Shown here piece after piece: positions 670-24,654 of a stretch of DNA of 64,000 nt. The notes below the pieces were generated by a model, which worked only from the letters and a program-made list of their open reading frames with translations, was not told where the DNA came from and made no database searches. Both the position numbers and the translations under genes were made by a program. Source of the stretch: Dysidea avara. Taxonomy: Eukaryota > Porifera > Demospongiae > Dictyoceratida > Dysideidae. The DNA is taken from positions 31,868,973-31,932,972 of the forward strand of contig NC_089273.1 in assembly GCF_963678975.1 (NCBI RefSeq). The letters run 5' to 3'. The first letter of the stretch is position 1. Each line of letters begins with the position of its first letter.

Positions 670-958
670 TCCACTTTATTAGTGACCGTATCAAGTATAG
701 GACCCAAGAACAGCTGAGTCATTTCACTAGGTCTGCAGTACCTTTCATGACCTAGCTTGTATCGTAATTTAGGGGGTTACACTACTCACGTGTATCAAAT
801 CCCACAAACAAAAGAATATCAACTTTTTAAAAACAACACCTTATAGAACATGTTAAGTCACATAATATTGATAAGAAAATGTTAAGTCACATAATATTGT
901 AAGTACCAAGTAGTATCTGAGGGGTGTTAAATAGTAGAAATGCCAAACTCTGTCTTAT
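670..958. other. Intergenic, nothing recognised
   Basis: Between MITE A and the start of the segmental duplication I see no coding exon, only AT-rich sequence with one short local repeat ('atgttaagtcacataatattg' occurs twice near 850-900). Confidence 0.5.
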
Positions 959-1204
959 GTACTCTAGGCGTACCACTGAGAGGCGATCTTTGACATCACC
1001 GTAAATCTTCAAGTCGGTTGCAGGATCAAAGTGATTGTTTCATTTCTACACATCTCCTGTGAGCATGGTAGTACACATTTCTTAAATCTGATGACATCTG
1101 GTGACTACCAGTACGTGGGTTTGCAAACATGACATACTCCTTATGTTGCAAGCATAAATCATAAGGAGGAGGCAGGTATAGTCAAATTCCAAAATCGGAT
1201 GCTT

Positions 1205-2024
1205 TTTGACCTCACATTTTCATCCAAATATGGATGATACTTCACTAAATCATCCATTTTGGATGATTATTACTCATCTCTCTTATAGTTACATAAGCAA
1301 ACATCATCCAAAAGTGGATGATTATTGCTTGATTCTCTATATAGTGAGTGCTTATGTAAGCAAATATCATCCAAAAGTGGATGATATTTGCTTGATTCAC
1401 TATATAGTGAGAGATGTATGCAAGAAGCATCCAAAATCGGATGTTTCTAACCATCCAATATTGGAATGTAAACTTAGCCTTCCAAAATCGGATGTTTCTA
1501 ACCATCCAATATTGGAATGTAAACTTTGCCTTCCAAAATCGGATGTTTCTTGCCATCCAATATTGGAATGTAACTTCTGTCGTCCAAAATTGGATGTTTC
1601 TTGCCATCCAATATTGGAATGTAACTTCTGCCTTCCAAAATTGGATGTTTCTTGCCATCCAATATTGGAATGAAATTTCTGTCGACCAAAATCGGATGTT
1701 TCTTGCCATCCTATATTGGAATGTAATTTCTGTCGTCCAAAATTGGATGTTTCTTGCCATCCTATATTGGAATGTAATTTCTGCCTTCCAAAATTGGATG
1801 TTTCTTGCCATCCAATATTGGAATGTAATTTCTGTCGTCCAAAATTGGATGTTTCTTGCAATCCAATATTGGAATGTAACTTCCGCCTTCCAAAATCGCA
1901 TGGTTTTTGCCATCCAATATTGAAATATAAGTTTTGCTTTCCAAAAATGGATGTTTCTTACTATCCATTATTGGAATGTAAGTTTTGCTTTCCAAAATTA
2001 GATGGTTCTTGCCATCCAATATAG
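1205..2024. repeat. Left-arm satellite array, 51-bp units
   Basis: About eleven tandem units of 51 bp, preceded by three looser units (1205-1420). Each unit holds two near-palindromes, CATCCAATATTGGAATG and TTCCAAAATTGGATG. Because 51 is a multiple of three and the units lack stops, several frames on both strands stay open for 60-220 codons. These are not genes: all frames are equally open and give the same low-complexity repeats. Confidence 0.85.
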
Positions 2025-2036
2025 ACTATTTCCGAA

Positions 2037-2573
2037 ATGACGTCTTGCAAACTCTATTTAGGGGACTCTTACGTTTTCGAGTACAGCTTCCCACGAAGAA
2101 TACTTCTAAGGACCTATCATGCGACTTCTAGAGATAATTTCGAAATGAAATCACCAGGTATTGTTAAAGAAATGCTAATTTACCTCTACTCGGAAAAACA
2201 GGCGAAAAATTTAAACCCGAGTAAAAAAAATTGTGTTATTGCCTTATAGCTGTACTTGTTAGTTTTAGCTCGATATCTTCTTCCTGTAGTACACTAACAA
2301 GTCGACCTCCATTTACGGCCCATAGAAACAGTACTCAAAAACATTGGAGTCTCCCAAATAGAGGTTATTGAAACCTCAATTATTTTAAGTGAGATTGGTA
2401 GCATACAGCTGCAGATGATCAGTTTCTGTGGAATTTTCAGTATGTGTAGGGATCACAATAATAAAAGCACTGAAACAAGAAGATAGCAACACAGTGCCAC
2501 TGAGTGCATTCTACTTCAAAATGGCCCAAAAAGCATCCTATGAGTTTCTCCAACTTTTTGGATTAGAAATTTT
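2037..2573. other. Core of the satellite-armed hAT element
   Basis: Single-copy-looking sequence between the two arrays. It holds a 70-codon open frame (2037-2249, +) with no recognisable domain. Around 2438-2490 there is a phrase ('gtagggatcacaataataaaagcactgaaacaag') related to the arms of the fold-back element at 20468-20739. This suggests the core derives from, or captured, another miniature element. Confidence 0.4.
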
Positions 2574-2578
2574 TCACC

Positions 2579-3046
2579 ATGAGTAGGGATCATCCAAATT
2601 TGGATGGCAAGGAATGTATTCCATTATTGGATGGCAAGAAACATCCAAATTTGGATGGCAAGGAATGTATTCCAATATTGGATGGCAAGATACATCCAAA
2701 TTTGGATGGCAACAAATGTATTCCAATATTGGATGGCAAGAAACATCCAAATTCGGATGACCAGAAATGTATTCCAATATTGGATGGCAAGAAACATCCA
2801 AATTTGGATGACCAGAAATGTATTCCAATATTGGATGGCTAGAAACATCCAAATTTGGATGGCAACAAATGTATTCCAATATTGGATGGCAAGAAACATC
2901 CAAATTTGGATGATTGTTGCATAAATCTCTCACTATATAGAGATATGAGCAATAATCATCCACTTTTGGATGATTTTGTTCCTTTGCAATAATCATCCAA
3001 TTGTGGATGAAAATGTGAGGTCAATAAACATCCAAAAATGGAAACG
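2579..3046. repeat. Right-arm satellite array, 51-bp units
   Basis: About six to seven units of the same 51-bp repeat as 1205-2024, in opposite orientation ('GCAAGAAACATCCAAATT', 'GTATTCCAATATTGGATG'). The outermost part (2915-3046) matches the reverse complement of 1185-1330, including the 'tatatagtgag' segment, so the inverted symmetry extends well beyond the short terminal repeats. Confidence 0.85.
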
Positions 3047-5500
3047 AACCATACCTCGGAGGAGGATGTGGTTTTCCATCTTCAGAACGTAAATTACGGA
3101 CTCTGCATCCTGGACACCTTGAAATGTTTCCTTTTACAAAAACAATACAAAATGACAAAGGAGAGTGTGAATCAGGCAGGTATGATTGAGTCTGTTGAGC
3201 TGGTAGTGTGATAGGAGCATAAACAACAGGGGAATAGAGTAAGGAAATATTTTGTGTGACAGATGGTATTATAGGGGAGGAGGTAACAAAGAGTACTCTG
3301 TAGGGGCATGGGGAAACATGGAGTAGAGTGGCAGAGGAGTTTAACTAGGCCCAGGTTCTGAAAATCTATCACATCTTGAGGTTTCATCTACAAAGGAAAC
3401 TTTGGATCCACCTGGTTGCACTCTGTACTTATGCTTACCAATGTTACCTTCCAATATTTGCTTGATGTGTTTCATATTTTTTTTCTGTGAAGCCTTTCGA
3501 CGCGTGTGAGCTTTTCTCCAACTGCTCTTAGGCATATCTATGGTTGCAAGTTTAGACAAGTTAGTTGGCAACCCTTTTTGTTTACTCATCCATGTCATGT
3601 ATTTGTCAAGCTGATTAGTTTTTCTAGCAACAGCAATAATATGAACACAGGTCTTACTACACTTAAAGACACCACAGTTTTGTTCACACACTATTTGGCC
3701 AGTTTGACAACATTCCACAAAATAAGGAGACTTACGGTGCAGATTAGTACTCTGGACCAGCCACTCAGATCGATTCCTGCAACCAGGAGACAAGCAAACA
3801 CTATCTTTTTGGCTTAATATCTTTGTGGACTCACTCCAGACTTTGTCTGCCAGATACGAAGGGACTTGAAGCTGATATAAAACATTTGTAGTACCTGAGC
3901 TTGACACTATTGAAGCGGAAGACATGGACGTTTCCTCAAACTGCTCTGACATGGCTGTTTCCTCAAACTGCTCTGACATGGTTGTTTCCTCGAACTGCTC
4001 TGACATGGCTGTTTCCTCGAACTGCTCTGCTTCAATGTGATCATTGAGAAGAGATGAAAACAAAGCTTTGACTATTCGTTCACGCTGCTTTTCTGACATT
4101 TGGAAAAAAGTGTGTGCATTAATGGCAAGATTTTGATAGTCACTTTTCAATCTGTATTCACCGATGCTTGCAGCAGCCTTTTCAATTTCTTTCTTTTGAT
4201 CAACCATCATTTCGTTCATCAAAGAAATGAAATCAGGTAGTTCCTGAGCTCTGTAGTTCACTTGATGCTTAATAACCTTGTTCTGAGACTCAACATCATT
4301 TGTATAGAATGGCTCTGGAGGGTTTCCAAGACCAGCCTTAATCCTGTACTCTTTTAACATCGTCTTCTGAACTTCTGCTTTACAGTTGTTAATAAACCAC
4401 TCATAAAATTGAGGAGGATTATTATACATCATTTCCCTATCATTCCTCCAATGAACATATACTTCCTTCAAAATCTTCATCAGAGTCAGCATCAACCAGG
4501 CCATCTTCAGCACTACAAGGATCCCCAATACGTCTCTTAAAAACTCAACTTACATGTACTTGGGAATATTGAATTCCCTCAGTTTTGACTCAAGGTTACC
4601 CTTGAAGTGAAGGAAGCAGCAACAATGTACAGCATTAAAAAAGACCGTTGAGAATGCTGTAGATAGTGCTTTTTCACCATCAGTGCCAAATGCCACCAGC
4701 CCACACAATGAAGGCTTGAGACCAACTAAAGAGGATGCAAAAAAGTAATATGTTTCAAACTTCTTTTGCTTATGCACAAAAATTGGACCCATTATAACTG
4801 GATGATTTCCACAAGAATTTTCCAACAACAGATGATGGTAAGTGGTGACAGTTACGTAGAAGTCACTGAGATTAAAAGTAGGGTCAACACTAAGCACTGT
4901 GCATTGTTGATTGGTACTGTCTGTCAAAATCTTTCCAGGTCATTCAATGACCAGTTAAAGCTCAGAACTGCCATTGGTTCTGGAGCACCCGACACAATTC
5001 TAACAAAAGCATTTTCTGTTTTCCCTCCCTCACTTTCCTTGCACATCAATATAACTGAAAACAGTGGATCCTTCTGCTTGCCTTGAATTGCACACTCTGT
5101 TACATTTCTACGTCTCCTCACATCAGCTGCTTGTTGTCTGTTGTGTGGTATTGCACCAGCACTAGAAGCAGTTAACAGGCTATCATCTGAAGTGTATTTA
5201 CTAACTGCAAACTTGGCAGTTAAATTTTGTGTTACAACTTGGCATAGTATGAACATAACTTTCAGATTGCTTAGAATTAGCATGAGGGCGAGTGGTCACT
5301 TTATGTTCTTCCTTTTCAAAACAATATTGGACAAGTGCAAGGTTCAATGTGTCCTCTTGATGATCTATAAACACACCAATTTTGATATGATTACACAAGT
5401 CACAGAGAATAAGATATAGTTTCGAACATATTATTAATTTTGTGTATTATAGTGAGTTTTCCATCTTACCCTGGCATATACAATGTAACCAATTATTATA

Positions 5501-6148
5501 TGTGACTGGATTTTGGAAAAACGATCCAAATCGCACATTAGAAGTTTCGAGATAAACGGTTTTAAAGAATTGAAGGCAGCATAACTCTCCAAGGATAGCA
5601 AGCACGCGTATGAAATTTACACAAAAGATGCATCAATCTGTTACCTTTCAAGCCACTTCCAGTATTTGTAGCTGCTTGTACAGTTTCCCGCCAAATAAGA
5701 TAGAAACTCTGAGCAGTTGGACGAGCGAAGTAGTATCACGAGTGCTCACAAAGGGGTGGAGGCTGGGGGGTGGCGGGGAAGGCAAAAGATGGGCCTCAAA
5801 ATGGAGGCAGACCACGATTGGAGTCCAGACACGAGATTACAGGGCTGTGCTGGCTCCTTAGTGGGTGATATGTAGCAAAATCTACAGAGAACACGTCTGG
5901 CCAACATTATAAAGCTGTCCACCAGTAAACCACCGATTCTTGCCAAGCCAGGTCCTTCACAAGGCCTGAAACCGCCATTTGGGCACTCCACACCACCCAG
6001 AAAAGACGTCTATTAAAACCAGCCTCGTGTAGTTTGAGTAGTGCTGAGGGTCATAACTTGTAGTACGATAGTGTAGCTATCCACTGGTGGTGTTAGTTTG
6101 ATTTTGCCTGATGTGCGATTTGGTTCGGTTCTGTAAAATCTGGTCACA
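5501..6148. mobile_element. TA-flanked inverted-repeat element
   Basis: A 648-bp insertion present only in duplicate copy 1. Copy 2 has the empty site (about 20218-20235, 'attatatgtatatttg'). Termini TGTGACTGGATTTTGG and, read in reverse, TGTGACCAGATTTTAC continue into about 40 bp of imperfect inverted repeat containing 'CCAAATCGCACAT'. The flank is TA on both sides (5499-5500, 6149-6150), consistent with a Tc1/mariner-type element, although an ATAT duplication cannot be excluded. Short open frames inside (for example 5610-5861) have no recognisable product. Confidence 0.75.
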
Positions 6149-6704
6149 TATGTATATTTGAAACCAACATATTATTCTGTTCAACTTATACCCACTGTAG
6201 AAATTGGATGAATGCAAACACTTGAGACATTCATTAAGGACTTTGGATAGTAAAATTCAAAATCAGTATCAATCTTTCGCTTAAAATTCTATACAAGCTG
6301 CATGTAGCTGCAAATGTGGTTGCAAGTTGGCACACAAATCATTTTTACATCCCATTTGTATATGCTACCAAGAGTACTCTTAATGCTATATACCTGTAAA
6401 CCATCATTCATTTTGGTACCACCCCCTCTTTGCATAAAGTAAGGGTTTTGTGAAATACAGATATCATATTAGTTCAAAGAAATTAATTCAGTCAGACAAT
6501 GGCTTAAATACAATTGTCCTTCAATTTAAATAAAAAGCATTGCATTGCCAAGGTGATTTGTGTGAACATCTTTGGCATGCATTACTTGCCTATAGAGCAG
6601 AATGTCTTTGCTAGAACTGATAACGTGATCTATATTTCACCAGACACTTTTTTGCAAAAGGATGGGTGGTGCCAAATTAATTCCATTATTCAATTACTTG
6701 TTAA

Positions 6705-7203
6705 CAGTGTTGGGAGTAACGCGTTACGTAATATTATTACTTTTGTGGTAACTAAGTAATATAACGAAATGCGCTATAAAAACAGGTAATATAACTCAAG
6801 TTACTTTACTTACAAATGTAACGCATTACCTAAGTAATATAGTTACTGTAACGAGTATAATATTATGTAATATTATTACTACAAGTAACGAAGTTACTAA
6901 TCTTGTTAGTAATCCACTGAGTAATGCCTAGCCACAACAAAGTAATGAAGCCTACTGAATGAAGCTTATTCACCAGCTTCTTACTTATTACCAAGATTTG
7001 CACATTGTCCAACACTGCAATCATGTCATGTGATAAGGTGGTAGTTTCACATGTGACAACTTAAGGCTGTGGACACAAAGTAATACAATATGTAATATTA
7101 TTACAGTTACTTTATTTTATGGGTAATATGTAACTGTAACTAAATAGTTCAGTTGCAAGTAATATGTAACTAGTTACTTTAAAAAGTAACTTGCCCAACA
7201 CTG
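6705..7203. mobile_element. hAT-like MITE, 'gttgggagtaac' family (copy in duplicate 1)
   Basis: A 499-bp element with ends CAGTGTTGGGAGTAAC and, read in reverse, CAGTGTTGGGCAAGTTAC, flanked by the 8-bp duplication CTTGTTAA (6697-6704, 7204-7211). The interior is rich in 'gtaatat' and 'gttac'. The same insertion is at the same site in duplicate 2 (22474-22967), so it predates the duplication. A third, independent copy is at 45557-46024. Confidence 0.9.
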
Positions 7204-7429
7204 CTTGTTAAGATCATGTGATCCTTTACGTCAGCTCACACAATGCATTCGTCAACTGATGGACAATACCTTAGAATTTTAAAAAATACATCCATAAACA
7301 TTTGAGTACCCATGTGTAATTTTCATAGCATTTGTCTAGGTATTGGACATCATCTTTCATATATATCTCTTCAACATTTTCCCCATATATATTATATCAA
7401 TATCACACAATACAGTAGTATTGTATATA

Positions 7430-7930
7430 AAATTAGGGTTGGACTTTTCTGGCCAAAATTTTCACCCTAAAACCAGCCTTACAATACCTTCGTGGCACCT
7501 TGGCAATATCGTTTAGGTATAACCAAGTCCAAAAGTGCCTTCAGTATGACCTAAAATATTTCCAAAAAGTTGCTACAAAATTTTAAAAAATTATTTAGCA
7601 GAATTTTATATACTGACTGACTTACTGACTAATGCCCTCAGACAAGCGCAACTTGATAATGGCTAAGACTATAGGGTTGATGTTTTCTCTGTTCAACATT
7701 GCTTCATCCTGAGACATACCTTTGGCATACCGCAGTATGTACAAATGCATGCATCATAGACTTATCTTGTCCTCCTTTTTGTCCCATTTCTTTTTGTTGA
7801 CAGCCCATGGTGTCAATTTGCAGTTGCGTGGCTTCCCTACGTTTGTAAACAGGAATTGTCAGAACCTTCCATGGTGACTGTAGAGACACTTCTTCCACTG
7901 TTCATTTGTAATGCTGTGAAACAGCCTGAG
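7430..7930. repeat. Dispersed repeat ('cttggcaatatcg...ggtataaccaag')
   Basis: Phrases such as 'cctaaaaccagccttacaat', 'caccttggcaatatcg', 'ggtataaccaag', 'cataccgcagtatgtacaa' and 'tgtcctcctttttgtccca' recur in the same order at 23210-23700, 60090-60430, 62480-62680 (left part) and 63680-63790 (right part). This is a dispersed repeat of about 450 bp. Termini and class are not resolved. The minus-strand open frame 7704-7898 belongs to the repeat. Confidence 0.65.
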
Positions 7931-8172
7931 CATAGCTTGAAGTGAATCATAATGGTCACTTCACTTTCAAGTCAGCTGGGATGTACATTCAGACAAAAAC
8001 ATTAACTTTGGTGCTTTCCTTTCTGTTGATGTGGTAGTCACCACTCATAATAAAGTTACAGAAAAAGTAGGGGAAAAAAGTATAAGGAAAGATTAGGAAT
8101 TTTAAGTTTAACTATAATACGGATTGTAGAAAAAAGTAAGGAAACAAGGGAGGTTGCCTAATGATATTGTAG

Positions 8173-11100
8173 TGAAATATTTGACAATGTCAAAGATTTA
8201 TTTATTCAGCTTGAAGATCTTGTGAAAGTTCCAAATATCATTCTGATAGAAGGAGCACCTGGAATAGGAAAAACTATTTTGTGCAAGGAAATTGCTATGC
8301 ATTGGGTATATTCCACCATACTTAGCAATACCAAGTTGTTATTTTTAATCTTTATAAGTGACCCTCAAGTTAAGAACATTAACAGTATTTTGTTTCTTGT
8401 TAACTACTTTTACAAGAATGATGCATTATCTGGTATAGTAACTGATTGGCTTATTGAAACTGATGGTGAATATCTCACAATTGTGGTAGATGGATATGAT
8501 AAAATTTACCAAGACAATGTTATAACTGATTTGATCAACCGTAAGCTGTTACCAAAATGTGGCTTAGTAATCACATCTCGTCCTGGTGCTTCATCACACA
8601 TCTGTACTAATGTAGACTGCAGAATAGAAATGTTGTACTTTAGTGAATGTAATCGACAGAATTTTATCCGGTATGCACTGAGAGATGAACAAAGTCACCA
8701 GATTAAAAAAATTGAAAAATTTCTGCAGTCTAATGTCTATATTGATGCTTTATGCTGCATTCCATTGAACCTGAATCTATTGCTTACCCTCATAGATTCA
8801 GAAAATATCAATGACTTGCCTAAAACCGAAGTAACTTTATATGAAATATTTATTATAAAAACGATCACTCATTTTCTTCAAGCAAACAATGAGGATGTGT
8901 CTTTACTAACTGTTAGTTGCCTCGTTGATCTCCCACAGCCATATTATCAGTTTGTTGTGGAACTGTGTCAATTTGCTTTTTTAGCATTACAAAATCATGA
9001 ACTGGTATTGTCACTCTCTGAATTTGAAACTGCCTGCCCTAAACTCAGCTGTGTTTATAAAAATGGACTGGGGTTATTAAAACCAACTCCACTTTTAAAA
9101 TTACAGGAACATTTTAAACAGAAAACACTGCAATTTATTTATATTGCCATTCAGGAATACATGGCCGCTTATTACATTGCCTTACTACCAGATCAAGAAC
9201 AAACAGAAATATTAAGTAGAATATTTTGGAAAACTTGTTATTTTAACACTGTTGAAAAATATTTTTCAATAACTAATGGCAAAACTATTAAATTTAATTT
9301 TCTATTGGGAAAACATAGTCAACTACATGAAACTTCTGCCAATTTAATGGAAATATTGAATAATAAAACTCACGCTCTTCATCTTCTCCAGTGTTTGAGA
9401 GAAGCTGACAAACTAATGTTGACAAATGATGACATATTCCCAGAAGGTGTTCTTGATTTTAGTGGTCACTCTCTACTACCACTAGATATACATGCACTTG
9501 CTGTTTTACTGTTAAGATCACAAAATAAACAGTGGAAAATGCTAAATTTATCGTACTGTATGATTGACGATAAATGTTGCAACTTGTTATGTGAAATGCT
9601 GAATGATTCCAAAAGTAGTGAAATAAACATCGACACTGTAAATATTGCTTGTAACATCTTCAATAATAATACACTTGCAAAATTATGCAGCATTCTTAAA
9701 CATTGGAAAATTAATGATCTCACTGTCTCTGCTTGTCATATATTGAATAGTGAACTATTAAAGATGATTGATACCTTTACAAATGCAATGGCAAATGCCA
9801 CTATGCAAAACAAAGAAACAAATTTGCTTAATGGAAAATTATCTATTAATTACATAACAGCACAAAATATAATGGTTGCCATTTATGCAGATAAGCAAAC
9901 CATTAAATGTGGCCATTTTGAACATTTTAATACAAGTGATGACGTGTTTGAAACTCTTCAGTGTTGGCTAAATGATATTGCAAGGGTTACGAATGTTGAT
10001 TTTACTGTTTACTTTGCAGGTGATAATGCAGTTAACATGCTGTCTGTGCTTTCTTTTAGCTTAAACCATATAAAGCTTCATACAGTCAGGGGTACATACC
10101 TGTTGAACATGGCTAAAACATCAACTGATTATAAGAAATTTTCATGGGATGAAAAAGTAGCAGATTACTTATCAACAATTGTAAGTCACAGCCTCTCAAA
10201 CTCATACAAAATAGTGCCTTCTGAAGCATATTCTTTGAAGTTTGGAATTTTTCAGAACCTGAGGCATAATATTTTGCTTCAAATGGAATTAGCTAAAATT
10301 ACTACTGACACTCCAATAATCAACATCGCTGATAACCCAGAGCTACAAGAGATAAATTTATTCGTTAATAATTTACCAGCAGCAATTACCAATACAATAA
10401 TCAATGCAATGCTTTTTTGTTCTACTTTGACAAATTTCAGCATCAAAAGCAATGTATTTGATGATGTAGCTACTGATGTTGCAACATTCTTATCTCATAA
10501 TCCTAACCTTCAAGAAATACAGCTTGGTGAAAATAGTTGGAAAGTGTCTAGTGTTATTAAAATTGCAAAAGCTTTAAAAAACAATTCAGATTTTAAAGTG
10601 ATTAACCTACGTGAGACTAACAGCATCAGTGGTGAAGCAGCAGACCATATCTCTACTCTATTGTCATCTAATACCAAGCTTCAAATTTTAGATTTATGCA
10701 GTGGCAATTTACAAACTTCAGGTGCCATTAAGATTGCTAAAGCTTTACAAAATACTACACACCTTATGAACTTTAATATGCAAAACAACAATATTAATGA
10801 TGAAGCAGCAGATGATATTGCAACTGTTTTATCTCATAATACTGGACTACAAGAGCTACATCTTGGTAAGAATACTTTAAGAACTTCAGGTGCCATCAAG
10901 ATAGCAAAAGCTTTACAAAATACTACACATCTTACAATATTTGATATGCAAAACAACAATATTAATGATGAAGCAGCAGATGATATTGCAATTGTTTTAT
11001 CTCAAAATACTGGACTACAAGAGCTGTGGCTAGGTGGAAATAATTTCCAAACTTCAAGTGCCATAAAGATGGCAATAGCTTTACAAAATACTACACATCT

Positions 11101-14100
11101 TACAATATTTCATATGAGAAACAACAATATTAATGATGAAGCAGCAGATGATATTGCAATTGTTTTATCTCAAAATACTGGACTACAAGAGCTGTGGCTA
11201 GGTGGAAATAATTTCCAAACTTCAAGTGCCATAAAGATGGCAATAGCTTTACAAAATACTACACATCTTACAATATTTCATATGAGAAACAACAATATTA
11301 ATGATGAAGCAGCAGATGATATTGCAACTGTTTTATCTCATAATACTGGACTACAAGAGCTATGTCTAGGTGGAAATAATTTACAAACTTCAGGTGCTAT
11401 CAAGATAGCAAAAGCTTTACAAAATACTACACATCTTACAATATTTGATATGCGATACAACAATATTAATGATGAAGCAGCAGATGATATTGCAACTGTT
11501 TTATCACATAATACTGGACTACAACAGCTGTGGCTAGGTGGAAATAATTTACAAACTTCAGGTGCTATCAACATAGCAAAAGCTTTACAAAATACTACAC
11601 ATCTTACAATATTTGATATACAAAACAACAATATTACTGATGAAGCAGCAGATGATATTGCAACTGTTTTATCTCATAATACTGGACTACAAGAGCTAGG
11701 TCTAGGTAGAAATAATTTACAAACTTCAGGTGCTATCAAGATAGCAAAAGCTTTACAAAATACTAAACGTCTTACAATGTTTGATATGTCAAACAACAAT
11801 ATTAATGATGAAGCAGCAGATGATATTGCAACTGTTTTATCTCATAATACTGGACTACAAGAGCTAGTTCTAGGTGGAAATAATTTACAAACTTCAGGTG
11901 CTATCAAGATAGCAAAAGCTTTACAAAATACTACACATCTTACAATATTTGATAAAGGAAACAACAATATTAATGATGAAGCAGCAGATGATATTGCAAT
12001 TGTTTTATCTCATAATACTGGACTACAACAGCTGTGGCTAGGTGGAAATAATTTACAAACTTCAGGTGCTATCAAGATAGCAAAAGCTTTACAAAATACT
12101 ACACATCTTACAATATTTGATATGCAAAACAACAATATTAATGATGAAGCAGCAGCAATTGTTTTATCTCATAATACTGGACTACAACAGCTGTGGCTAG
12201 GTGGAAATAATTTACAAACTTCAGGTGCTATCAAGATAGCAAAAGCTTTACAAAATACTACACACCTTACAATATTTGATATGCAAAACAACAATATTAA
12301 TGATGAAGCAGCAGATGATATTGCAACTGTTTTATCTCATAATACTGGACTACAAAAGCTAGGTCTAGGTGGAAATAATTTACAAACTTCAGGTGCTATC
12401 AAGATAGCAAAAGCTTTACAAAATACTACACATCTTACAATATTTGATATGCAAAACAGCAATATTAATTATGAAGCAGCAGATGATATTGCAGCTGTTT
12501 TATCTCATAATACTGGACTACAAAAGCTGTGGCTAGGTGGAAATAATTTACAAACTTCAGGTGCTATCAAGATAGCAAAAGCTTTACAAAATACTAAACG
12601 TCTTACAATATTTGATGTGTCAAACAACAATATTAATGATGAAGCAGCAGATGGTATTGCAACTGTTTTATCTCATAATACTGGTCTACAAGAGCTAGGT
12701 CTAGGTGGAAATAATTTACAAACTTCAGGTGCTATCAAGATAGCAAAAGCTTTACAAAATACTACACATCTTGCAATATTTCATATGCGAAACAACAATA
12801 TTAATGATGAAACTGCAGATGATATTGCAATTGTTTTATCTCATAATACTGGACTACAACAGCTGTGGCTAGGTAGAAATAATTTACAAACTTCAGGTGC
12901 TATCAAGATAGCAAAAGCTTTACAAAATACTACACATCTTACAATATTTGATATGCAAAACAGTAATATTAATGATGAAGCAGCAGATGATATTGCAACT
13001 GTTTTATCTCTTAATACTGGACTACAAAAGCTAGGTCTAGGTGGAAATAATTTACAAAACTTCAGGTGCTATCAAGATAGCAAAAGCTTTACAAAATACT
13101 ACACATCTTACAATATTTGATATGCAAAACAACAATATTAATGATGAAGCAGCAGATGATATTGCAACTGTTTTATCTCATAATACTGGACTACAAAAGC
13201 TGTGGCTAGGTGGAAATAATTTACAAACTTCAGGTGGTATCAAGATAGCAAAAGCTTTACAAAATACTAAACGTCTTAGAATATTTGATATGTCAAACAA
13301 CAATATTAATGATGAAGCAGCAGATGATATTGCAACTGTTTTATCTCATAATACTGGACTACAACAGCTGTGGCTAGGTGGAAATAATTTACAAACTTCA
13401 GGTGCTATCAAGATAGCAAAAGCTTTTCAAAATACTACACATCTTACAATATTTGATATGCAAAACAGCAATATTAATGATGAAGCAGCAGATGATATTG
13501 CAACTGTTTTATCTCATAATACTGGAGTACAAAAGCTAGGTCTAGGTGGAAATAATTTACAAACTTCAGGTGCTATCAAGATAGCAAAAGCTTTACAAAA
13601 TACTACACATCTTACAATATTTGATATGCAAAACAGCAATATTAATGGTGAAGCAGCAGATGATATTGCAACTGTTTTATCTCATAATACTGGACTACAA
13701 CAGCTGTGGTTAGGTGGAAATAATTTACAAACTTCAGGTGCTATCAAGATAGCAAAAGCTTTACAAAATACTACACTTCTTACAATATTTGATATGCGAA
13801 ATAACAATATTAATGATGAAGCAGCAGATGATATTGCAATTGTTTTATCTCATAATACTGGACTACAACAGCTGTGGCTAGGTGGAAATAATTTACAAAC
13901 TTCAGGTGCTATCAAGATAGCAAAAGCTTTACAAAATACTGCACATCTTACAATATTTGATATGCAAAACAGCAATATTAATGATGAAGCAGCAGATGAT
14001 ATTGCAACTGTTTTATCTCATAATACTGGACTACAACAGCTGTGGCTAGGTGGAAATAATTTACAAACTTCAGGTGCTATCAAGATAGCAAAAGCTTTAC

Positions 14101-15893
14101 AAAATACTGCACATCTTACAATATTTGATATGCAAAACAGCAATATTAATGATGAAGCAGCAGATGATATTGCAACTGTTTTATCTCATAATACTGGACT
14201 ACAACAGCTGTGGCTAGGTGAAAATAATTTACAAACTTCAGGTGCTATCAAGATAGCAAAAGCTTTACAAAATACTACACATCTTACAATATTTCATATG
14301 CGAAACAACAATATTAATGATGAAGCAGCAGATGATATTGCAACTGTTTTATCTCATAATACTGGACTACAACAGCTGTGGCTAGGTGGAAATAATTTAC
14401 AAACTTCAGGTGCTATCAAGATAGCAAAAGCTTTACAAAATACTACACATCTTACAATATTTGATATGCGAAACAACACTATTAATGATGAAGCAGCAGA
14501 TGATATTGCAATTGTTTTATCTCAAAATACTGGACTACAACAGCTGTGGCTAGGTGGAAATAATTTACAAACTTCAGGTGCTATCAAGATAGCAAAAGCT
14601 TTACAAAATACTAAACGTCTTACAATATTTGATATGCGAAACAACACTATTAATGATGAAGCAGCAGATGATATTGCAATTGTTTTATCTCAAAATACTG
14701 GACTACAAGAGCTGTGGCTAGGTGGAAATAATTTACAAACTTCAGGTGCTATCAAGATAGCAAAAGCTTTACAAAATACTACACATCTTACAATATTTGA
14801 TATGTCAAACAACAATATTAATGATGAAGCAGCAGATGATATTGCAACAGTTTTATCTCATAATACTGGACTACAAGAGCTAGGTCTAGGTGGAAATAAT
14901 TTACAAACTTCAGGTGCTATCAAGATAGCAAAAGCTTTACAAAATACTACACATCTTACAATATTTGATATGCGAAACAACAATATTAATGATGAAGCAG
15001 CAGATGATATTGCAACTGTTTTATCTCATAATACTGGACTACAACAGCTGTGGCTAGGTAGAAATAATTTACAAACTTCAGGTGCTATAAATATAGCAAA
15101 AGCTTTACAAAATACTACACATCTTACAATATTTCATATGCAAAACAACAATATTAATGGTGAAGCTGCAGATGTTATTGCAACTGTTTTATCTCATAAT
15201 ACTGGACTACAACAGCTAGGTCTAGGTGGAAATAATTTACAAACTTCAGGTGCTATCAAGATAGCAAAAGCTTTACAAAATAGTAAACGTCTGACAATAT
15301 TTGATATGTCAAACAACAATATTAATGATGAAGCAGCAGATGATATTGCAACTGTTTTATCTCATAATACTGGACTACAAGAGCTAGGTCTAGGTGGAAA
15401 TAATTTACAAACTTCAGGTGCTATCAAGATAGCAAAAGCTTTACAAAATACTACACATCTTACAATATTTGATATGCGAAACAACAATATTAATGATGAA
15501 ACAGCAGATGATATTGCAACTGTTTTATCTCATAATACTGGACTACAACAGCTGTGGCTAGGTGGAAATAATTTACAAACTTCAGGTGCTATCAAGATAG
15601 CAAAAGCTTTACAAAATGCTACACATCTTACAATATTTGATATTGAAAACAACAATATTAATGATGAAGCAGCAGATGATATTGCAATTGTTTTATCTCA
15701 TAATACTGGACTACAAAAGCTATATCTAGGTGGAAATAATTTACAAACTTCAGGTGCTATAAAGATAACTAAAGCTTTACAAAATAGTAAGCGTATTACA
15801 ATATTTGATATAAGAAATAACGGTCTTAATGACAGAGAAGTAATCAATATTACATCTATTATATCAAATAACACTGCACTTCAAATACAGTAA
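8173..15893 (+). CDS. NLR receptor: NACHT domain with about 31 double-LRR units (5' end missing, frameshifted)
   Basis: An intracellular pattern-recognition receptor of the NLR family. The frame opens at 8165 after a stop at 8162-8164. An AG at 8171-8172 is a plausible splice acceptor, so the start at GTG 8222 is not used as a real start. With 8222 as codon 1: Walker A GAPGIGKT at 11-18, Walker B VVDGYDKI at 88-95, sensor 1 TSRP at 118-121, and the winged-helix motif FIYIAIQEYMAAYYI at 305-319. A divergent linker and LRRs follow to about residue 830, then about 31 near-identical units of 56 residues (two ribonuclease-inhibitor-type LRRs each) to the stop at 15891-15893. One extra A at 13056-13059 shifts the frame, ending the first part at 13120; the second frame continues to 15893. 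Total about 2550 residues. No DEATH, CARD or other N-terminal domain is visible upstream. Walker B has Lys where Glu is usual, and the winged-helix His is Tyr. Regulation cannot be read. Confidence 0.93.
10709..15893 (+). repeat. Tandem array of about 31 units x 168 bp coding for LRR pairs
   Basis: Each unit encodes SGAIKIAKALQNTTHL... then DEAADDIATVLSHNTGL..., 56 residues. Units are nearly identical at the DNA level, including silent sites, which indicates recent expansion or gene conversion. One unit (about 12125-12185) lacks 9 bp (residues DDI). Amino-acid changes cluster at the strand positions: D/H and Q/R/S in 'FDMQNN', and E/Q/K and W/G/C/V/H/Y in 'LQELWLGG'. The last unit is diverged and ends the protein. 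Confidence 0.95.
13056..13059 (+). other. Single-base frameshift inside the LRR array
   Basis: The sequence reads 'tttacaaaacttcagg' where every other unit has 'tttacaaacttcagg', one extra A. The frame then stops at 13118-13120, and the downstream frame picks up the array without loss of register. It could be a real null allele or an assembly or sequencing error in a homopolymer. Confidence 0.92.
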
Positions 15894-16905
15894 TTTGGCA
15901 GCAATAAATTTTTGCCTCCATGAGATAGTCCAATAGACATTTTGATACAATATCCGAAACTATAATAATTATATGTAAAAATTGTAAAAACTGTATATAT
16001 GTATGGTAATTTTAAAGTCAACATAATTAAAGGTGTTAATAAGGTTAATATATTATTAGGGTGTTACTTGAAGCCATCTGGAAAAGTTGAAACTAAAACT
16101 TTGTGGAATAATGTAGAAAAAATCAGATCCAGTAGTGACTTGATTTCAATCTATATAGGTATGCACCAAGAGCCACAGCAGCTGGGGCCTGTATAGAATC
16201 TTCTTTGCCAAAGCTAGAGCTGTGGATTTTCAGGCCAGCTTTACACTGCAATCTAACTCCTGTTATACAAGCTTTCACAAAGTAGCCTTCTCGCATTCAG
16301 GTCATGCTATGTACTAGATTAATAAACCCAATGAAACAAGAAGCCATGTTGTTTAAGGATCCCAGGCTGTACATGTGTGGACTTCACAGGTACTTGCAAG
16401 CAGTCTATGAATCAATTATAGTCTGTTTGCGTTCACCTGAACCCTCGTTTCTTGTTAATAACTCTTGTTACATGGGCCAGCTGCCCAAACATTTAGTAGT
16501 GCTGTGAAGCCCTTTAAATGCCGGAAACGTTAATCAAAAAAGTGCTTTGATGCGGGCAAGAACAAGTGAGTTATGAGGCTTTAAAAATATCCCATACATT
16601 TAGTGGGGAATTGGAAACAGTGGAAATGGAAACTGGAAACGGAAAATGCGGAAATGGTCAAATTTTTATATACATGTATCCTAGAGAAAAACCTCTACTT
16701 TGTGGTCACATTTTCAATAAAGACCACCTCTGTATAAGACCACTTTTCAGAAAGGCTTAATTGCAAAAATAGCAGTTACAAATAATATGTATTGCATGAC
16801 AGCTATATATATATAGGCACTTAAGAGAATGCATTTTTTTGATATAGCTAGTACAGGTTATATAACTAGATGGACACCCAACTAAATGATTTATGATATA
16901 GGTAG
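15894..16905. other. Intergenic 3' of the NLR gene
   Basis: No convincing exon. Two AATAAA-like signals (15902 and 16320) could serve polyadenylation of the NLR transcript. Around 16690-16745 there is a 'gtggtcac...gaccacctctg' relic of the family seen at 60-430. A short TA microsatellite lies near 16806-16814. Small open frames (15999-16196, 16304-16507, 16566-16760) look like chance. Confidence 0.45.
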
Positions 16906-17311
16906 GTACTCTAGGTGTACCACTGAGAGGCGATCTTTGACATCACTGTAAATCTTCAAGTCGGTTGCAGGATCAAAGTGATTATGTTTCATTTCTACAC
17001 ATCTCCTGTGAGCATGGTAGTACACATTTCTTAAATCTGGTGACTACCAGTACGTGGGTTTGCAAACATGACATACTCCTTATGTTGCAAGCATAAATCA
17101 TAAGGAGGAGGATGTGGTTTTCCATCTTCAGAACGTAAATTATGGACTCCGCATCCTGGACACCTTGAAATGTTTCCTTTTACAAAAACAATACAAATTG
17201 ACAAAGGAGAGTGTGAATCAGGCAGGTATGATTGAGTCTGTTGAGCTGGTAGTGTGATAGGAGCATAAACAACAGGGAAATAGGGTGAGGAAATATTTTG
17301 TGTGACAGATG

Positions 17312-17553
17312 CACTGCTTGAAGGTTCTTAGTTTACTAATTTGTTAAACTACTTTACTGCAGTTGTACCCAGTTATACTGATGGTAAAATGTCAGTAACT
17401 TTAAGTATATGGAACATAATTATTTTACTAAGTTTTAAAGTCTCAGTAAAACATCAGTGAGTGTGGGTTTACTGAAACTAAAATAACAAACAATTAACTG
17501 TTCCATATACTGGGGTTATACCACTCTAGTAAACTAAGAAACTTCAAGCAGTG
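17312..17553. mobile_element. CACTG-ended miniature element (MITE A, copy 2)
   Basis: A 242-bp element, ends CACTGCTTGAAGGTTCTTAG and (reverse) CACTGCTTGAAGTTTCTTAG, flanked by ATG (17309-17311, 17554-17556). Duplicate copy 1 shows the uninterrupted site around 3260-3275. It is closely similar to 434-669. The 3-bp duplication fits CACTA/EnSpm-like elements. Confidence 0.82.
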
Positions 17554-17558
17554 ATGAT

Positions 17559-18003
17559 TAGGGACCCGCCGATTATGCTGGCATAATTATGAGCATAATA
17601 GGTGCCTGAAAGCATTGAGCATAATGCTAGCATAATAGATAGAATATTTGTGTAATAGTATGAATTCTTGCTTATTAAAATAGCTATCACAGAAAGATCG
17701 ATATACTCTAATAGAACAGTTAGTAACTCTAATAGAACAATCACATAGCTGACTGTTCTATTAGAGTATATCGATCTTTTCTGTGATATGCATTTTGACA
17801 AGTAAGTTTGTGCTTCAGCCACTTATTATTTATCCATAAACTGGAAATTATTAGTAGAGTATGAGAACTGAGGCATAAATAATTGGGTAAATTTGAGCAT
17901 AATAGGTAAGTGTTGAGCATAAATTTAAGCATAATAGGTAAATTTTTGAGCAGTGCAGCATAGCATAATAGGTAAAATTATGAGCATAATAGGCGGGTCC
18001 CTA
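17559..18003. mobile_element. hAT-like miniature element (MITE B, 'gcataatagg' family)
   Basis: A 445-bp element with ends TAGGGACCCGCCGATTATGC and (reverse) TAGGGACCCGCCTATTATGC, flanked by the 8-bp duplication GTGATGAT (17551-17558, 18004-18011). Its target is the right end of MITE A plus flank, so it inserted later. The interior carries 'gcataatagg' copies and an inverted repeat around 'actctaatagaac' / 'gttctattagagt'. Related elements are at 25411-25847 and 41028-41279. Confidence 0.9.
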
Positions 18004-20154
18004 GTGATGATATTAGGAGAGGAGGTAACAAAGAGTACTCTGTAGGGACATGGGGAGACATGGAGTAGAGTGGTGGAGGAGTTAGCCCAGGTTCTGAAAA
18101 TCCATCACATCTTGAGGTTTCATCTACAAAGGAAACTTTGGATCCACCTGGTTGCACTCTGTACTTATGGTTACCAATGTTACCTACCAATATTTGCTTG
18201 ATGTGTTTCATAGTTTTTTTTTCTGTGAAGCCTTTCGACGCATGTGAGCTTTTCTCCCACTGCTCTTAGGCATATCTATGGTTGCAAGTTTAGACAAGTT
18301 AGTTGGCAACCCTTTTTGTTTACTCATCCATGTCATGTATTTGTCAAGCTGATTAGTTTTTCTAGCAACAGCGATAATATGAGCACAGGTCTTACTACAC
18401 TTAAAGACACCAGTTTTGTTCACACACTATTTAACCAGTTTGACGACATTCCACAAAATGAGGAGGCTTACGGTGTAGATCAGTACTCTGGACCAGCCAC
18501 TCAGATCGATTCCTGCAACCAGGAGACAGGCAAACACTATCTTTTTGCTTAATATCTTTGTAGACTCACTCCAGACTTTGTCTGCCAGATACAAAGGGAC
18601 TTGAAGCTGATATAAAACATTTGTAGTACCTGAGCTTGACACTATTGAAGCGGAAGACATGGACGTTTCCTCAAACTGCTCTGACATGGCTGTTTCCTCA
18701 AACTGCTCTGACATGGTTGTTTCCTCGAACTGCTCTGCTTCAATGTGATCATTGAGAGGAGATGAAAACAAAGCTTTGACTATTCGTTCACACTGCTTTT
18801 CTGACATTTGGAAAAACGTGCGTGCATTAATGGCAAGATTTTGATAGTCACTTTTCAATCTGTATTCACCGATGCTTGCAGCAGCCTTTTCAATTTCTTT
18901 ATTTTGATCAACCATTATTTCTTTCATCAAAGAAATGAAATCAGGTAGTTCCTGAGCTCTGTAGTTCATTTGATGCTTAATAACCTTGTTCTGAGACTCA
19001 ACATCATTTGTATAGAATGGCTCTGGAGGGTTTCCAAGACCAGCCTTAATCCTGTACTCTTTTAACATCATCTTCTGAACTTCTGCTGTACAGTTGTTAA
19101 TAAACCACTCATAAAACTGAGGAGGATTATTATAAATCATTTCCCTATCATTCCAGATTTTCTCCAATGAACATATAATTCCTTCAAAATCTTCGTCAGA
19201 GTCAGCATCAACCAGGCCATCTTCAGCACTACAAGGATCCCCAAATATTTCTCTTAAAAACTCAACTTGCATGTGCTTGGGAATAATGAATTCCCTCAGT
19301 TTTGACTCAAGGTTACCGTCGAAGTGAAGGAAGCAGTAACAATGTATAGCATTAAAAAAGACCGTTGAGAATGTTGTAGATAGTGCTTTTTTACCATCAG
19401 TGCCAAATGCCACCAGCCCACGTAATGAAGGCTTGAGACCAACTAAAGAGGATGCAAAAGAGGAATATGTTTCAAACTTCTTTTGCTTATGCACAAAAAT
19501 TGGACACATTATAACTGGATGGTTTCCACAAGAATTTTCCAACAACAGATGACAGTAAGTGGTGACAGTTACGTAGAAGTCACCGAGATTAAAAGTAGGG
19601 TCAACACTAAGCACTGTGCATTGTTGATTGGTACAAAAGCTTTCCAGGTCATTCAATGACCAGTTAAAGCTCAGAACTGTCATTGGTTCTGGAGCACCCG
19701 ACACAATTCTAACAAAAGCATCTTCTGTTTTCCCTCCCTCACTTTCCTTGCACATCAATATAACCGAAAACAGTGGATCCTTCTGCTTGCCTTGAATTGC
19801 ACACTCTGTTACATTTCTATGTCTCCTCATATCAGCTGCTTGTTGTCTGTTGCGTGGTATTGCACCAGCACTAGAAGCAGTTAACAGGCTATCATCTGAA
19901 GTGTATTTTCTAACTGCAAACTTGGCAGTTAAATTTTGTGTTACATCTTTTAATTTCTTTAAAGTACTTGGCATAGTACGAACATAACTTTCAGATTGCT
20001 TAGAATTAGCATGAGGGCGAGGGGTCACTTTATGTTCTTTCTGTTCAAAACAATATTGGACAAGTGCAAGGTTCAATGTGTCCTCTTGATGATCTATAAA
20101 GACACCAATTTTGATATGATTACACAAGTCACAGAGAATAAGATATAGTTTCAA

Positions 20155-20464
20155 ACATATTATTAATTTTATGTATTATAGTGAGTTTTCCATCTTACCC
20201 TGGCATATACAATGTAACAAATCATTATATGTATATTTGAAACCAACATATTATTCTGTTCAGCTTATACCCACTGTAGAAATGGGATGAATGCAAACAC
20301 TTGAGACATTCATTAAGGACTTTGGATAGTAAAATTCAAAATCAGTATCAATCTTTCGCTTAAAATTCTATACAAGCTGCATGCAGCTACAAATGTGGTT
20401 GCAAGTTGGCGCACAAATCATTTTTATATTCCATTTGTATATGCTACCAAGAGTACTCTTAATG
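20155..20464. other. Upstream region of MULE copy 2
   Basis: AT-rich sequence shared with 5399-5500 and 6151-6390 of copy 1. It probably carries the 5' part or promoter of the transposase gene, but I cannot identify an exon or a TATA element with confidence. Confidence 0.35.
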
Positions 20465-20467
20465 CTA

Positions 20468-20739
20468 CAAGTGGAACAAAAAATTAGGAATTTTCAATAT
20501 GAGTAGGGATCAAAGTAATAAAAAGTACTGAAACAAGAGAGATTATCTACCACCTGAAGTCATGCTAGTACACACATAATCGCTACTTCAGTTGCCAAGA
20601 TTTAAGATATAATGGCACTGAAGTAGGGATTACGTGTGTACTAGCATGACTTCAGGTAGTAGATAATCTCTCGTTTCAGTACTTTTTATTACTTTGATCC
20701 CTACTCATATTGAAAATTCCTAATTTTTTGTTCCACTTG
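20468..20739. repeat. Fold-back palindrome
   Basis: A 272-bp inverted repeat. CAAGTGGAACAAAAAATTAG at the left is matched by its exact reverse complement at the right end, and the arms pair over about 115 bp with few mismatches ('gaagtcatgctagtacacac' pairs with 'gtgtgtactagcatgacttc'). The loop is about 40 bp. It can form a long hairpin as DNA or RNA. Related arms occur at 24655-24885 and in part at 8088-8160 and 2438-2490. Confidence 0.85.
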
Positions 20740-20865
20740 TTTGTGTACTTTTTACAAACATTGCATGAATCTTATCTTTTATGTGCATGCAGTTTCTATT
20801 ACACAGGACACTAAAGTTACTATTTCTTCAATGTCCATGGTTTGCTAGCTATGTTATAGACAACA

Positions 20866-21336
20866 TTACCTGTGTTTAGATTCTTTGCACAGTTTCTCAA
20901 TATTAGAAAAGTAGTACTTGCTGGTTGAGGATCTAGTAGCAGCACGGGATTTGGCAACATCCTTGCGGTAATGTTCTTTAGTGCTCTCTGCAGAATCCAC
21001 ACGAGACTTTTCCAAGTCTTGATGGTAGTGTTCCCTTTTCTTTTTTGCAACTTCAGTGCGAGACTTTTCCAAGTCTTGATGGTAGTATTCCCTTTGCCTT
21101 TCCGCTGACTCAATGCGAGACTTTGCCAAATCTTTGTTAAATGATGTTTTGGTGGCTTCAGCTGATTTCTCACGCGACGCTGTTACATTTTTGTAGTACT
21201 CATTAGCATGACGCTGTGATCGGCATTCACTGCTGTACTCCTTTCTCTCTGAGAGTATAGACTCTGTATGAGCTTCATAGTACGCCCTGTTATTCTCCTT
21301 CTTTCTACTCTTCCGTGCCGCTTCCTTCGAAGGCAT
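20866..21336 (-). CDS. Charged helical repeat protein fragment, unrecognised
   Basis: A 156-codon frame from the ATG at 21336 (a longer open frame reaches 21387). The N terminus is basic ('MPSKEAARKSRKKENNRAYY'). Then come about five imperfect 19-residue repeats built around 'DLxKSRxxSAExxxxxYY', predicted to be strongly helical and highly charged. It ends in 'NIEKLCKESKHR'. No enzymatic motif is visible. Similar charged repeats occur N-terminal to domains of some large transposon proteins in invertebrates; that link is a guess. The DNA is less AT-rich than its surroundings. It could equally be the first exon of a longer captured gene. Confidence 0.5.
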   Translation of the reverse strand: MPSKEAARKSRKKENNRAYYEAHTESILSERKEYSSECRSQRHANEYYKNVTASREKSAEATKTSFNKDLAKSRIESAERQREYYHQDLEKSRTEVAKKKREHYHQDLEKSRVDSAESTKEHYRKDVAKSRAATRSSTSKYYFSNIEKLCKESKHR

Positions 21337-22473
21337 TGCCACACCCAATATTGCCTCAGAGAAAACACACAAAGCAATAATAACCACAATACCCTTAGCT
21401 AACGCTATTTTGCTACGAATTATTTCTAATATCGCTCAAATACTTGAGGTAGATACGTTGTTTACAGCAAAGAAATGCGTTTACAAACGCAAGCAATATT
21501 AATTTTGCCGGTTAACTTTGCCAGAAACAAAAGATATAAGTCGCTAAATATATTCACTTACACGTACAAAGCTTCCCGATTGTGAACAGCTCGCTCTTCC
21601 TGCTCAAAATCAACTTCGAACTTTCAACCACGCGTATTCGAATATTTTACCGCGAAGATTATGATTACTCTATTTAGCGAGCACTCTTATTGAAACAAAC
21701 TGCGCCGTACATTGAAGTCATTTGTGGAGTTATTAACACTACCTGTAGTGAATCCAGGACGATGGCGACATTAAAGAACGATGAAAGGTAAGACCCTAGC
21801 GCAAGGATTGTATTTCTATCGGTGTAGGAAAGGTTTAATCTATAGGCAAAGCGAGCCGTTTTCATGCAAGAAGTAGGACTGTAGCTGTTGCCATCTTCCC
21901 GCTAGGCCTGGCTGAAGGCATCAGTTAGGGAGTCAGTCACTAGAAAATTCGATCAGATAGAATTTTTTTTAAAATTCGTGGAAACTCATAGGATGCATTT
22001 CGCGTCGTTTTGAAGGCGAAATCGTGCTTCACTTTTGTAATACAATACTGTTGAATCGCCGAGATGGTTTTGCAAGTCTGCTTTTGGTGCGTAATTTTTT
22101 GGCGGGAAATCGTGAACCTTGACGATCCCTACCATTAAGTACTACCGTACTTAATGATATACCTGTAAACCAGCATTCATTTTGGTACCACCCCCTCTTT
22201 GCATAAAGTAAGGATCTTGTGAAATACAGATATCATATTAGTTCAAAGAAATTAATTCAGTCAGACAATGGCTTAAATACAATTGTCCTTCAATTTGAAT
22301 AAAAAGCATTGCATTGCCAAGGTGATTTGTGTGAACATCTTTGGCATGCATTACTTGCCTATAGAGCAGAATGTCTTTGCTAGAACTGATAACGTGATCT
22401 ATATTTCACCAGACACTTTTTTGCAAAAGGATGGGTGGTGCCAAATTAATTCCATTATTCAATTACTTGTTAA

Positions 22474-22967
22474 CAGTGTTGGGAGTAACGCGTTACGTAA
22501 TATTATTGCTTTTGTGGTAACTAAGTAATATAACGAAATACGCTATAAAAACATGTAATATAACTCAAGTTACTTTACTTACAAATGTAACGCATTACCT
22601 AAGTAATATAGTTACTGTAACGAGTTATTATGTAATATTATTACTACAAGTAACGAAGTTACTAATCTTGTTAGTAATCCACTGAGTAATGCCTAGCCAC
22701 AACAAAGTAATGAAGCCTACTGAATGAAGCTTATTCACCAGCTTCTTACTTATAACCAAGATTTGCACATTGTCCAACACTGCAATCATGTCACGTGATA
22801 AAGTGGTAGTTTCACACGAGACAACTTAAGGCTGTGGACACAAAGTAATATAATATGTAATATTATTATAGTTACTTTATTTTATGGGTAATATGTAACT
22901 GTAACTAAATAGTTCAGTTGCAAGTAATATGTAACTAGTTACTTTTAAAGTAACTTGCCCAACACTG
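22474..22967. mobile_element. hAT-like MITE, 'gttgggagtaac' family (copy in duplicate 2)
   Basis: A 494-bp element with the same ends and the same 8-bp flanks CTTGTTAA (22466-22473, 22968-22975) as 6705-7203. It is at the orthologous position in the duplicate and is therefore older than the duplication. Confidence 0.9.
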
Positions 22968-23209
22968 CTTGTTAAGATCATGTGATCCTTTATGTCAGCT
23001 CACACAATGCATTCGTCAACTGATGGACAATAGCTTGGAATTTAAAAAAATGCATCCATAAACATTTGAGTACCCATGTGTAATTTTCATAGCATTTGTC
23101 TAGGTATTGGACATCATCTTTCATATATATCTCTTCAACATTTTTTCCCATATACAATATATCAATATCATACAATACAGTAGTATTGTATATAAATTAG
23201 GGTTGGACT

Positions 23210-23712: not shown

Positions 23713-23769
23713 ATAATGGTCACTTCACTTTCAAGTCAGCTGGGACGTGCATTCAGACAAAAACATTAA

Positions 23770-24588: not shown

Positions 24589-24654
24589 TTAACTTTGGTG
24601 CTTCCTTTCTGTTGATGTGGTAGTCACCTCTCATAATAAAGTTACACAAGTATA

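Follow-up and report, generated by a model that had tools for sequence, protein, structure and literature searches.

A truncated tandem copy of a sponge NLR gene and its probable concerted evolution of leucine-rich repeats

The gene pair of Dysidea avara

The stretch of DNA considered here (the window; 64,000 nucleotides, C2:31868973-31932972) belongs to the genome of the dictyoceratid demosponge Dysidea avara, which comprises 550.8 Mb in 108 contigs, and carries on its + strand a single long exon (8165-15893) of a NOD-like receptor (NLR) gene, in which a NACHT domain is followed by a C-terminal array of leucine-rich repeats (LRRs). In the most probable reading, it is the shortened partner in a tandem pair of sponge NLR genes, and its LRR array undergoes concerted evolution with selection acting on the binding face. 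The NACHT match (PF05729) reaches 57.9 bits against a cut-off of 26.7, LRR_6 is also matched in Pfam, and both hallmarks of animal NLRs, i.e. NACHT and C-terminal LRRs, are present in the gene. The parts of the gene and the duplicated flanks are the following.

8165..10714, + strand: NACHT domain (PF05729, E 1.5e-15) and a diverged LRR stretch ahead of the array; 5′-truncated exon copy, homologous to the upstream paralogue from 8165 onwards
10715..15893, + strand: LRR array of 30 complete units of 56 residues, followed by a degenerate 31st that contains the stop codon (from Tandem Repeats Finder (TRF) and unit alignment)
12155..12157, + strand: approximate site at which unit 9 (12059-12217, length 159, from the alignment) has lost 9 nt in frame
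13048..13058, + strand: run with one extra A at the end of unit 14, causing a frameshift; frame 1 stops at 13120
956..8160: flank copy A, 3′ of the upstream paralogue, its end adjoining the truncated exon; six collinear pieces, 86-97% identical to 16903-24729
16903..24729: flank copy B, 3′ of the window gene, matched to 956-8160

The array is real and stands at the end of an NLR gene, with NACHT followed by ribonuclease-inhibitor-type LRRs. Its 31 unit starts run from 10715 at a spacing of 168 bp, with the exceptions of units 9 and 14, and TRF returns a period of 168, 30.4 copies and 93% matches. The array described in an initial annotation, made from the sequence alone, is therefore there, but its count of about 31 near-identical units holds only for the starts: the end units, 1 and 31, have diverged from the consensus by 22 and 49 differences, respectively, and the homogeneous array consists of 29 units, with a mean pairwise DNA identity of 94.5% among units 2-30. 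The same annotation had missed the 9-nt gap in unit 9, the unit-14 frameshift, which divides the coding sequence between two frames, 8165-13120 and 13041-15893, and the lost part of the 5′ exon. In the rest of the window no further NLR pieces were found at 1e-4 by tblastn with a set of 210 related proteins, and scans of viral contigs found no relatives.

A second copy lies 18.6 kb upstream (C2:31858263-31867460) as an uninterrupted frame of 3065 residues, the array of which consists of 37 full units and a terminal unit, 38 units without an indel. The homology between the copies starts at window position 8165, i.e. after 94 residues of the upstream frame, and their alignment extends beyond the stop of the gene, to 16877; the part missing from the window gene includes a pre-NACHT stretch common to relatives. 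An N-terminal effector domain (CARD, DEATH or PYD), which is optional in animal NLRs, would be expected in this missing 5′ part; ahead of the upstream paralogue, the analysis covered a listing of ORFs. The flank junction was read by eye and by alignment of the copies, and the simplest reading is that the gene and its downstream flank were duplicated in tandem, with the 5′ part of the second (window) gene cut off. With its 5′ end removed by the duplication, the window copy probably is inactive or depends on a new 5′ exon for its expression. Positions 24586-24860 resemble, by eye, a small inverted-repeat element, made of a stretch common to 7999-8160 and then an inverted copy, and one of its ends coincides with the duplication junction at 8160. 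A related protein, P0001, was considered as an arrayless allele and rejected: all 874 of its 874 compared residues equal the upstream paralogue (the last three fall outside the comparison) and it ends immediately ahead of the array, which makes a gene model cut short the probable explanation.

Before the arrays (850 codons), the copies differ at 39 of 2550 bases, i.e. they are 98.5% alike, with 19 replacement and 20 silent changes. The corresponding ratio of replacement to silent differences per site (pN/pS) is 0.26, with a pS of 0.037; this speaks against an old pseudogene and suggests either that constraint acted on the truncated copy during some of its existence, or that conversion corrects it.

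That the array is built of ribonuclease-inhibitor-type LRRs, as the initial annotation had it, is borne out on several grounds. It matches ribonuclease inhibitors and NLRP proteins in sequence, and a six-unit AlphaFold model, built from a single sequence of 336 residues, reaches a predicted local distance difference test score (pLDDT) of 83.8 and a predicted template modelling score (pTM) of 0.82, the remaining four models being lower (mean pLDDT 59.8-76.3). In the modelled unit, strands at residues 19-21 and 47-49 alternate with helices at 2-10 and 29-40, in repeats of 28-29 residues as in the ribonuclease-inhibitor type, and the Foldseek neighbours of the model are RNase inhibitors, NLRP9, NOD2 and NLRC4. 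The strand-face set used throughout was chosen before the tests and consists of 10 codons (18%), namely positions 2, 3, 5, 7 and 8 of LxxLxLxxN in both LRRs of the unit; such strand positions are described as exposed on the concave side in NLR LRRs (PMC8226289). We infer that these strand-face residues would touch a ligand.

Variation within the arrays and turnover between the copies

Most of the variants named in the initial annotation are present in units 2-30 of the window array, i.e. at codon 21 (D24/H5), codon 23 (Q12/R10/S5/G1/E1), codons 15-16 (TH, but KR in 5 units), codon 47 (Q14/E9/K6), codon 49 (W18/G8/C1/V1/Y1) and codon 52 (G25/R3/E1). However, unit 1 alone contributes the H of codon 49 and the K of codon 52, and K at codon 23 is absent, unit 8 reading D-K-G with the K at codon 22. 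Variation is concentrated on the strand face, where the mean entropy is 0.70 versus 0.22 elsewhere (permutation P 0.002), but ‘almost only’ at ligand-facing positions is too strong, since 42% of the pairwise amino-acid differences fall on the 10 strand codons and 58% elsewhere. Off the strand face, codons 37 (T19/I9/A1), 25 (N23/S6), 15-16 and 41 vary, codon 37 lying in a helix of the model. Nor is every silent position constant: codon 48 reads CTG in 18 units and CTA in 11. At codons 47-49 (window 11051-15746) the units fall into two classes: 18 read CTG-TGG, always encoding W, and 11 read CTA-NNT, encoding G, C, V or Y. The CTG-TGG class may represent the recent spread of one variant.

The window-array pN/pS is 2.9 (1.1-6.5) on the strand versus 0.75 (0.38-1.67) at other codons, intervals here and below coming from a bootstrap that resamples codons without a recombination model; overall, the 61 substitution types (49 replacement, 12 silent) are indistinct from the neutral proportion (P 0.09-0.33). 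The window data could also be those of a young coding minisatellite under relaxed constraint, recently amplified, with neutral differences and with the strand as the least constrained part of the LRR. The overall neutrality, the near-neutral singletons (24 replacement : 8 silent), the framework pN/pS with its interval up to 1.67, the frameshift and a deficit of stop changes that is not significant (P 0.08) all agree with such an origin. Against it, replacement types fall on strand codons in nine of 14 cases when present in three or more units, versus seven of 24 among singletons (Fisher P 0.047), so that the enrichment sits among the variants that spread.

In the window array, linkage between variants less than 6 bp apart is 0.44; it drops to 0.12 at distances of 6-12 bp and comes close to background past 60 bp. 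There are no identical unit pairs in the window array and neighbouring units are not significantly more alike, so that the mosaic of variant cassettes of the initial annotation is not found as a mosaic of whole units. Simulations agree on this point: whole-unit unequal exchange left zero identical pairs in 0/60 and 0/60 runs (0/120 in total), and simulated conversion in tracts of 30-100 bp came closer to both the absent identical units and the linkage beyond 6 bp, although such tracts gave too low a linkage below 6 bp (0.16-0.25 versus 0.44) and too few singletons. Short-tract conversion therefore fits the window array better than whole-unit exchange, and whole-unit cassettes were rejected for it.

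The upstream array differs in this respect. Identical units form 21 pairs in it, its exact repeats reach 568 bp and its units show a similarity at lag 3 (P 0.004), which together point to recent exchange of multi-unit blocks. Its pN/pS is 2.66 (1.21-5.65) on the strand and 0.39 (0.15-1.02) elsewhere.

Units are homogenised within each array, and the correspondence of interior units between the copies is nearly all lost, while the exon before the array is still 98.5% identical. The window has 30 full units and the upstream copy 37, no identical unit is common to both arrays, and best matches between them are consecutive in only one of 28 steps. Six strand barcodes, of 21 and 23, are common to both arrays, and of the 42 variant types counted upstream, 18 recur in the array of the window. 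Being alike before the array and yet unlike in unit number and most of the order, the copies argue for exchange between units in germline sequence, and the germline diversification proposed in the initial annotation is upheld by this comparison, together with the upstream repeats of up to 568 bp.

Unit number and order, as well as the extra base, would be unreal if near-identical units had been mis-joined in the assembly. Short-read assemblies of comparable fungal repeats are described as unreliable (PMC12222747), and the window frameshift sits in a homopolymer. However, the contiguity of the genome (550.8 Mb in 108 contigs) suggests long reads, the neighbour remains in frame across 38 units, the end units match between the copies (one base different in unit 1, 13 of 147 in the terminal unit), and mis-joining would not give rise to replacement changes focused on the strand. 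Such an artefact is thus very improbable.

A stronger competitor, for the window copy alone, is that it is a plain decaying pseudogene, in which array diversity is the residue of its parent and exchange has ceased. The absent 5′ part, the frameshift, the lack of identical units and the neutral-looking singletons all fit, as do 32 singletons against simulated averages of 7-20; the pre-array pN/pS of 0.26 since the split and the recurrence of 18 of the 42 upstream variant types in the window array do not. The chances of this alternative are judged to be only slightly short of even. As it concerns the window copy only, the explanation by concerted evolution stands at the level of the family and, since the window array lies in a 5′-truncated and frameshifted duplicate, the intact neighbour is the better example.

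Other arrays of the genome and other features of the window

The intact neighbour and further arrays elsewhere in the genome show the pattern better than the window copy does. Besides the window, 17 of 52 scored NACHT places were examined, taken by rank with gaps (53 of 1610 candidates having been scored), as 10-kb stretches in which arrays may be shortened. Homogenised runs of 6 to 37 units were found in six of these 17 NLR loci, the upstream copy included, and 11 were without. All six are enriched in variation on the strand (P <= 0.0002), with pN/pS of 1.44-4.08 on the strand and 0.25-0.60 in the framework; the pooled values are 2.40 (1.54-3.57) and 0.38 (0.26-0.55), respectively, from the codon bootstrap, which is not recombination-aware. 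In the intact-frame arrays, the framework shows a deficit of replacement relative to silent changes, and the predicted concave strand face an excess. Relaxed constraint cannot yield such a strand value along with such a framework value, nor does it sit well with a neighbour whose 3065-residue frame holds 38 units without an indel; a neutral minisatellite is accordingly an unlikely source of the pattern.

The related set of 210 proteins extends these observations. It contains 26 arrays, defined as runs of at least four units at 75% identity, 18 of which show strand enrichment (P<0.05), as do six of 11 framework clusters, that of the window among them. The median ratio of strand to framework entropy rises with homogeneity, from 1.9 at a threshold of 0.5 (79 arrays) to 5.1 at 0.85 (6 arrays). 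Framework identity is 0.88 within and 0.64 between arrays (27 arrays), and such array-specific frameworks are expected under concerted evolution. Across 65 pairs with a NACHT identity of at least 80%, the more homogenised arrays are less conserved in order (Spearman -0.69) and differ more in unit number (0.47), in a comparison that uses proteins repeatedly and in which likeness between units biases the best-match order. When it is limited to 26 pairs that do not overlap, the trend in unit number is not significant (P 0.13), but the gap between framework and strand is (P 0.004).

Several observations weigh against concerted evolution with selection on the binding face. The strand interval of one array (C9_2492) spans 1 (0.92-2.26), the framework interval does so in three of the six arrays, and the codon bootstrap behind all these intervals ignores recombination. 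Eight of the 26 related arrays and five of the 11 framework clusters are without strand enrichment, and even in the intact array framework sites vary, i.e. codon 43 in 12, codon 37 in eight, and codons 25 and 50 in seven of 36 units. The pre-array pN/pS of 0.26 is below the expectation for a window copy unconstrained since the duplication (P 0.004-0.02), and no simulated model matched both the linkage of 0.44 below 6 bp and the 32 singletons. A weak shared order persists between the two arrays (permutation P 0.065, 0.0075 and 0.0175 at three score settings), and a complete loss of order was consequently rejected (P 0.0075-0.065).

Two further members of the family stand out by their size or structure. 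The locus L016+L015 (G000:C8:7985664-8005663, - strand) carries an NLR frame of at least 5724 residues (5806 in the candidate listing), with 88 recognizable LRR units and a longest homogenised run of 20; going by its own length, it is possibly among the longest NLRs known. In P0211, a diverged relative with 23 units, three units (868-1035) recur nearly unchanged as the next three (1036-1203), i.e. as a block duplication.

Elsewhere in the window, a region of open reading frames (ORFs) is found in two copies on the - strand (3341-5446 and 18427-20175; 93% identical over 3262-5503 versus 18006-20232), transposon-like in appearance, with its two longest ORFs lacking a Pfam match at 1e-3. A tandem array of a 31-bp unit, repeated about 64 times and marked by strong AT skew, spans 30068-32035. 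Arrays of a 51-bp unit, in which several frames are open on either strand, lie at 1430-2022 (11.6 copies) and 2591-2912 (6.3 copies). A helicase C-terminal fragment (PF00271, E 1.5e-10) is found at 55500-56012 on the + strand, and an ORF of 315 residues, with no Pfam match, at 46793-47740 on the - strand.

Related systems and biological meaning

The closest system is that of the fungal het-d/het-e genes, to which the sponge genes do not belong but like which they would work. In the fungal NWD genes, near-identical WD40 repeats of NACHT proteins are reported to evolve in concert, with positive selection at a few positions of the interaction face, and the family includes pseudogenes with intact repeats (PMC1805685, PMC4986451, PMC12222747). 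The likeness to the het-d/het-e/NWD genes of Podospora anserina thus covers the NACHT domain, near-identical tandem repeats (94.5% here, units 2-30) in concerted evolution, replacement changes favoured on the interaction face (here the pooled 2.40, 1.54-3.57, not recombination-aware), variable repeat number (here between two paralogues of one genome) and damaged repeat-bearing copies. The fungal genes differ in carrying WD40, ANK or TPR repeats and in having known incompatibility partners, whereas the sponge genes are animal and carry LRRs, a repeat that was not found among the fungal NLR repeats in the account given in PMC4986451.

The initial annotation had compared the array with the lamprey variable lymphocyte receptors (VLRs). 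LRR units, a variable concave surface and a conversion-like exchange of modules are indeed shared, but VLRs are extracellular, have no NACHT domain and are assembled somatically by way of cytosine deaminases, during lymphocyte development, from a gene that is incomplete in the germline (PMC3900441). The upstream paralogue is a complete genomic frame of 3065 residues in the assembly, which makes the fungal genes a closer parallel than the lamprey ones. The highly variable plant NLRs also have their variable residues on concave LRR strands, but as alleles of diverged LRRs rather than near-identical units of one array (PMC8226289). The zinc-finger array of PRDM9 likewise consists of homogenised coding repeats with replacement favoured (mean dN/dS, the ratio of replacement to silent substitution rates, of 2.7 there), but binds DNA and is no immune receptor (PMC5120217). 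As regards D. avara itself, a repertoire of 126 NACHT+LRR genes with repeat counts up to 30 has been described, in an account where a search by terms finds no treatment of unit homogeneity, selection by position or exchange (PMC12909245). In the literature searched, mostly papers available without subscription, no report was found of concerted LRR arrays in NLRs of sponges or other invertebrates.

In the mechanism proposed for these genes, units would be copied over each other by short-tract gene conversion and by out-of-register exchange of blocks, each comprising one to several units; framework changes would be purged and binding-face changes retained and spread, and receptors of new length and new surface would result. 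A ligand on the array surface would then lead to NACHT oligomerization and signalling, and the truncated window copy may act as a reservoir of units on which its neighbour draws. While the evolutionary part of this account draws on computed results, we infer the receptor function, the ligand and the variation between individuals.

A wider proposal, offered tentatively and with somewhat more doubt than confidence, is that sponges hold germline NLRs that rewrite themselves, with homogenised LRR arrays ready to recombine, so that unit number, unit order and binding-face residues would outpace the rest of the gene, individuals would differ in their receptors for microbes or for self/non-self, and truncated tandem copies would act as unit donors. 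The mapped germline pair, in a chromosome-scale genome, shows array turnover between copies that are otherwise 1.5% different, and bears on the diversity of recognition in animals without lymphocyte receptors, as well as on the basis of sponge allorecognition. If true, the principle of the fungal WD40 NLRs would extend to LRRs and to an early-branching animal, which would then possess a counterpart of the incompatibility NLRs.

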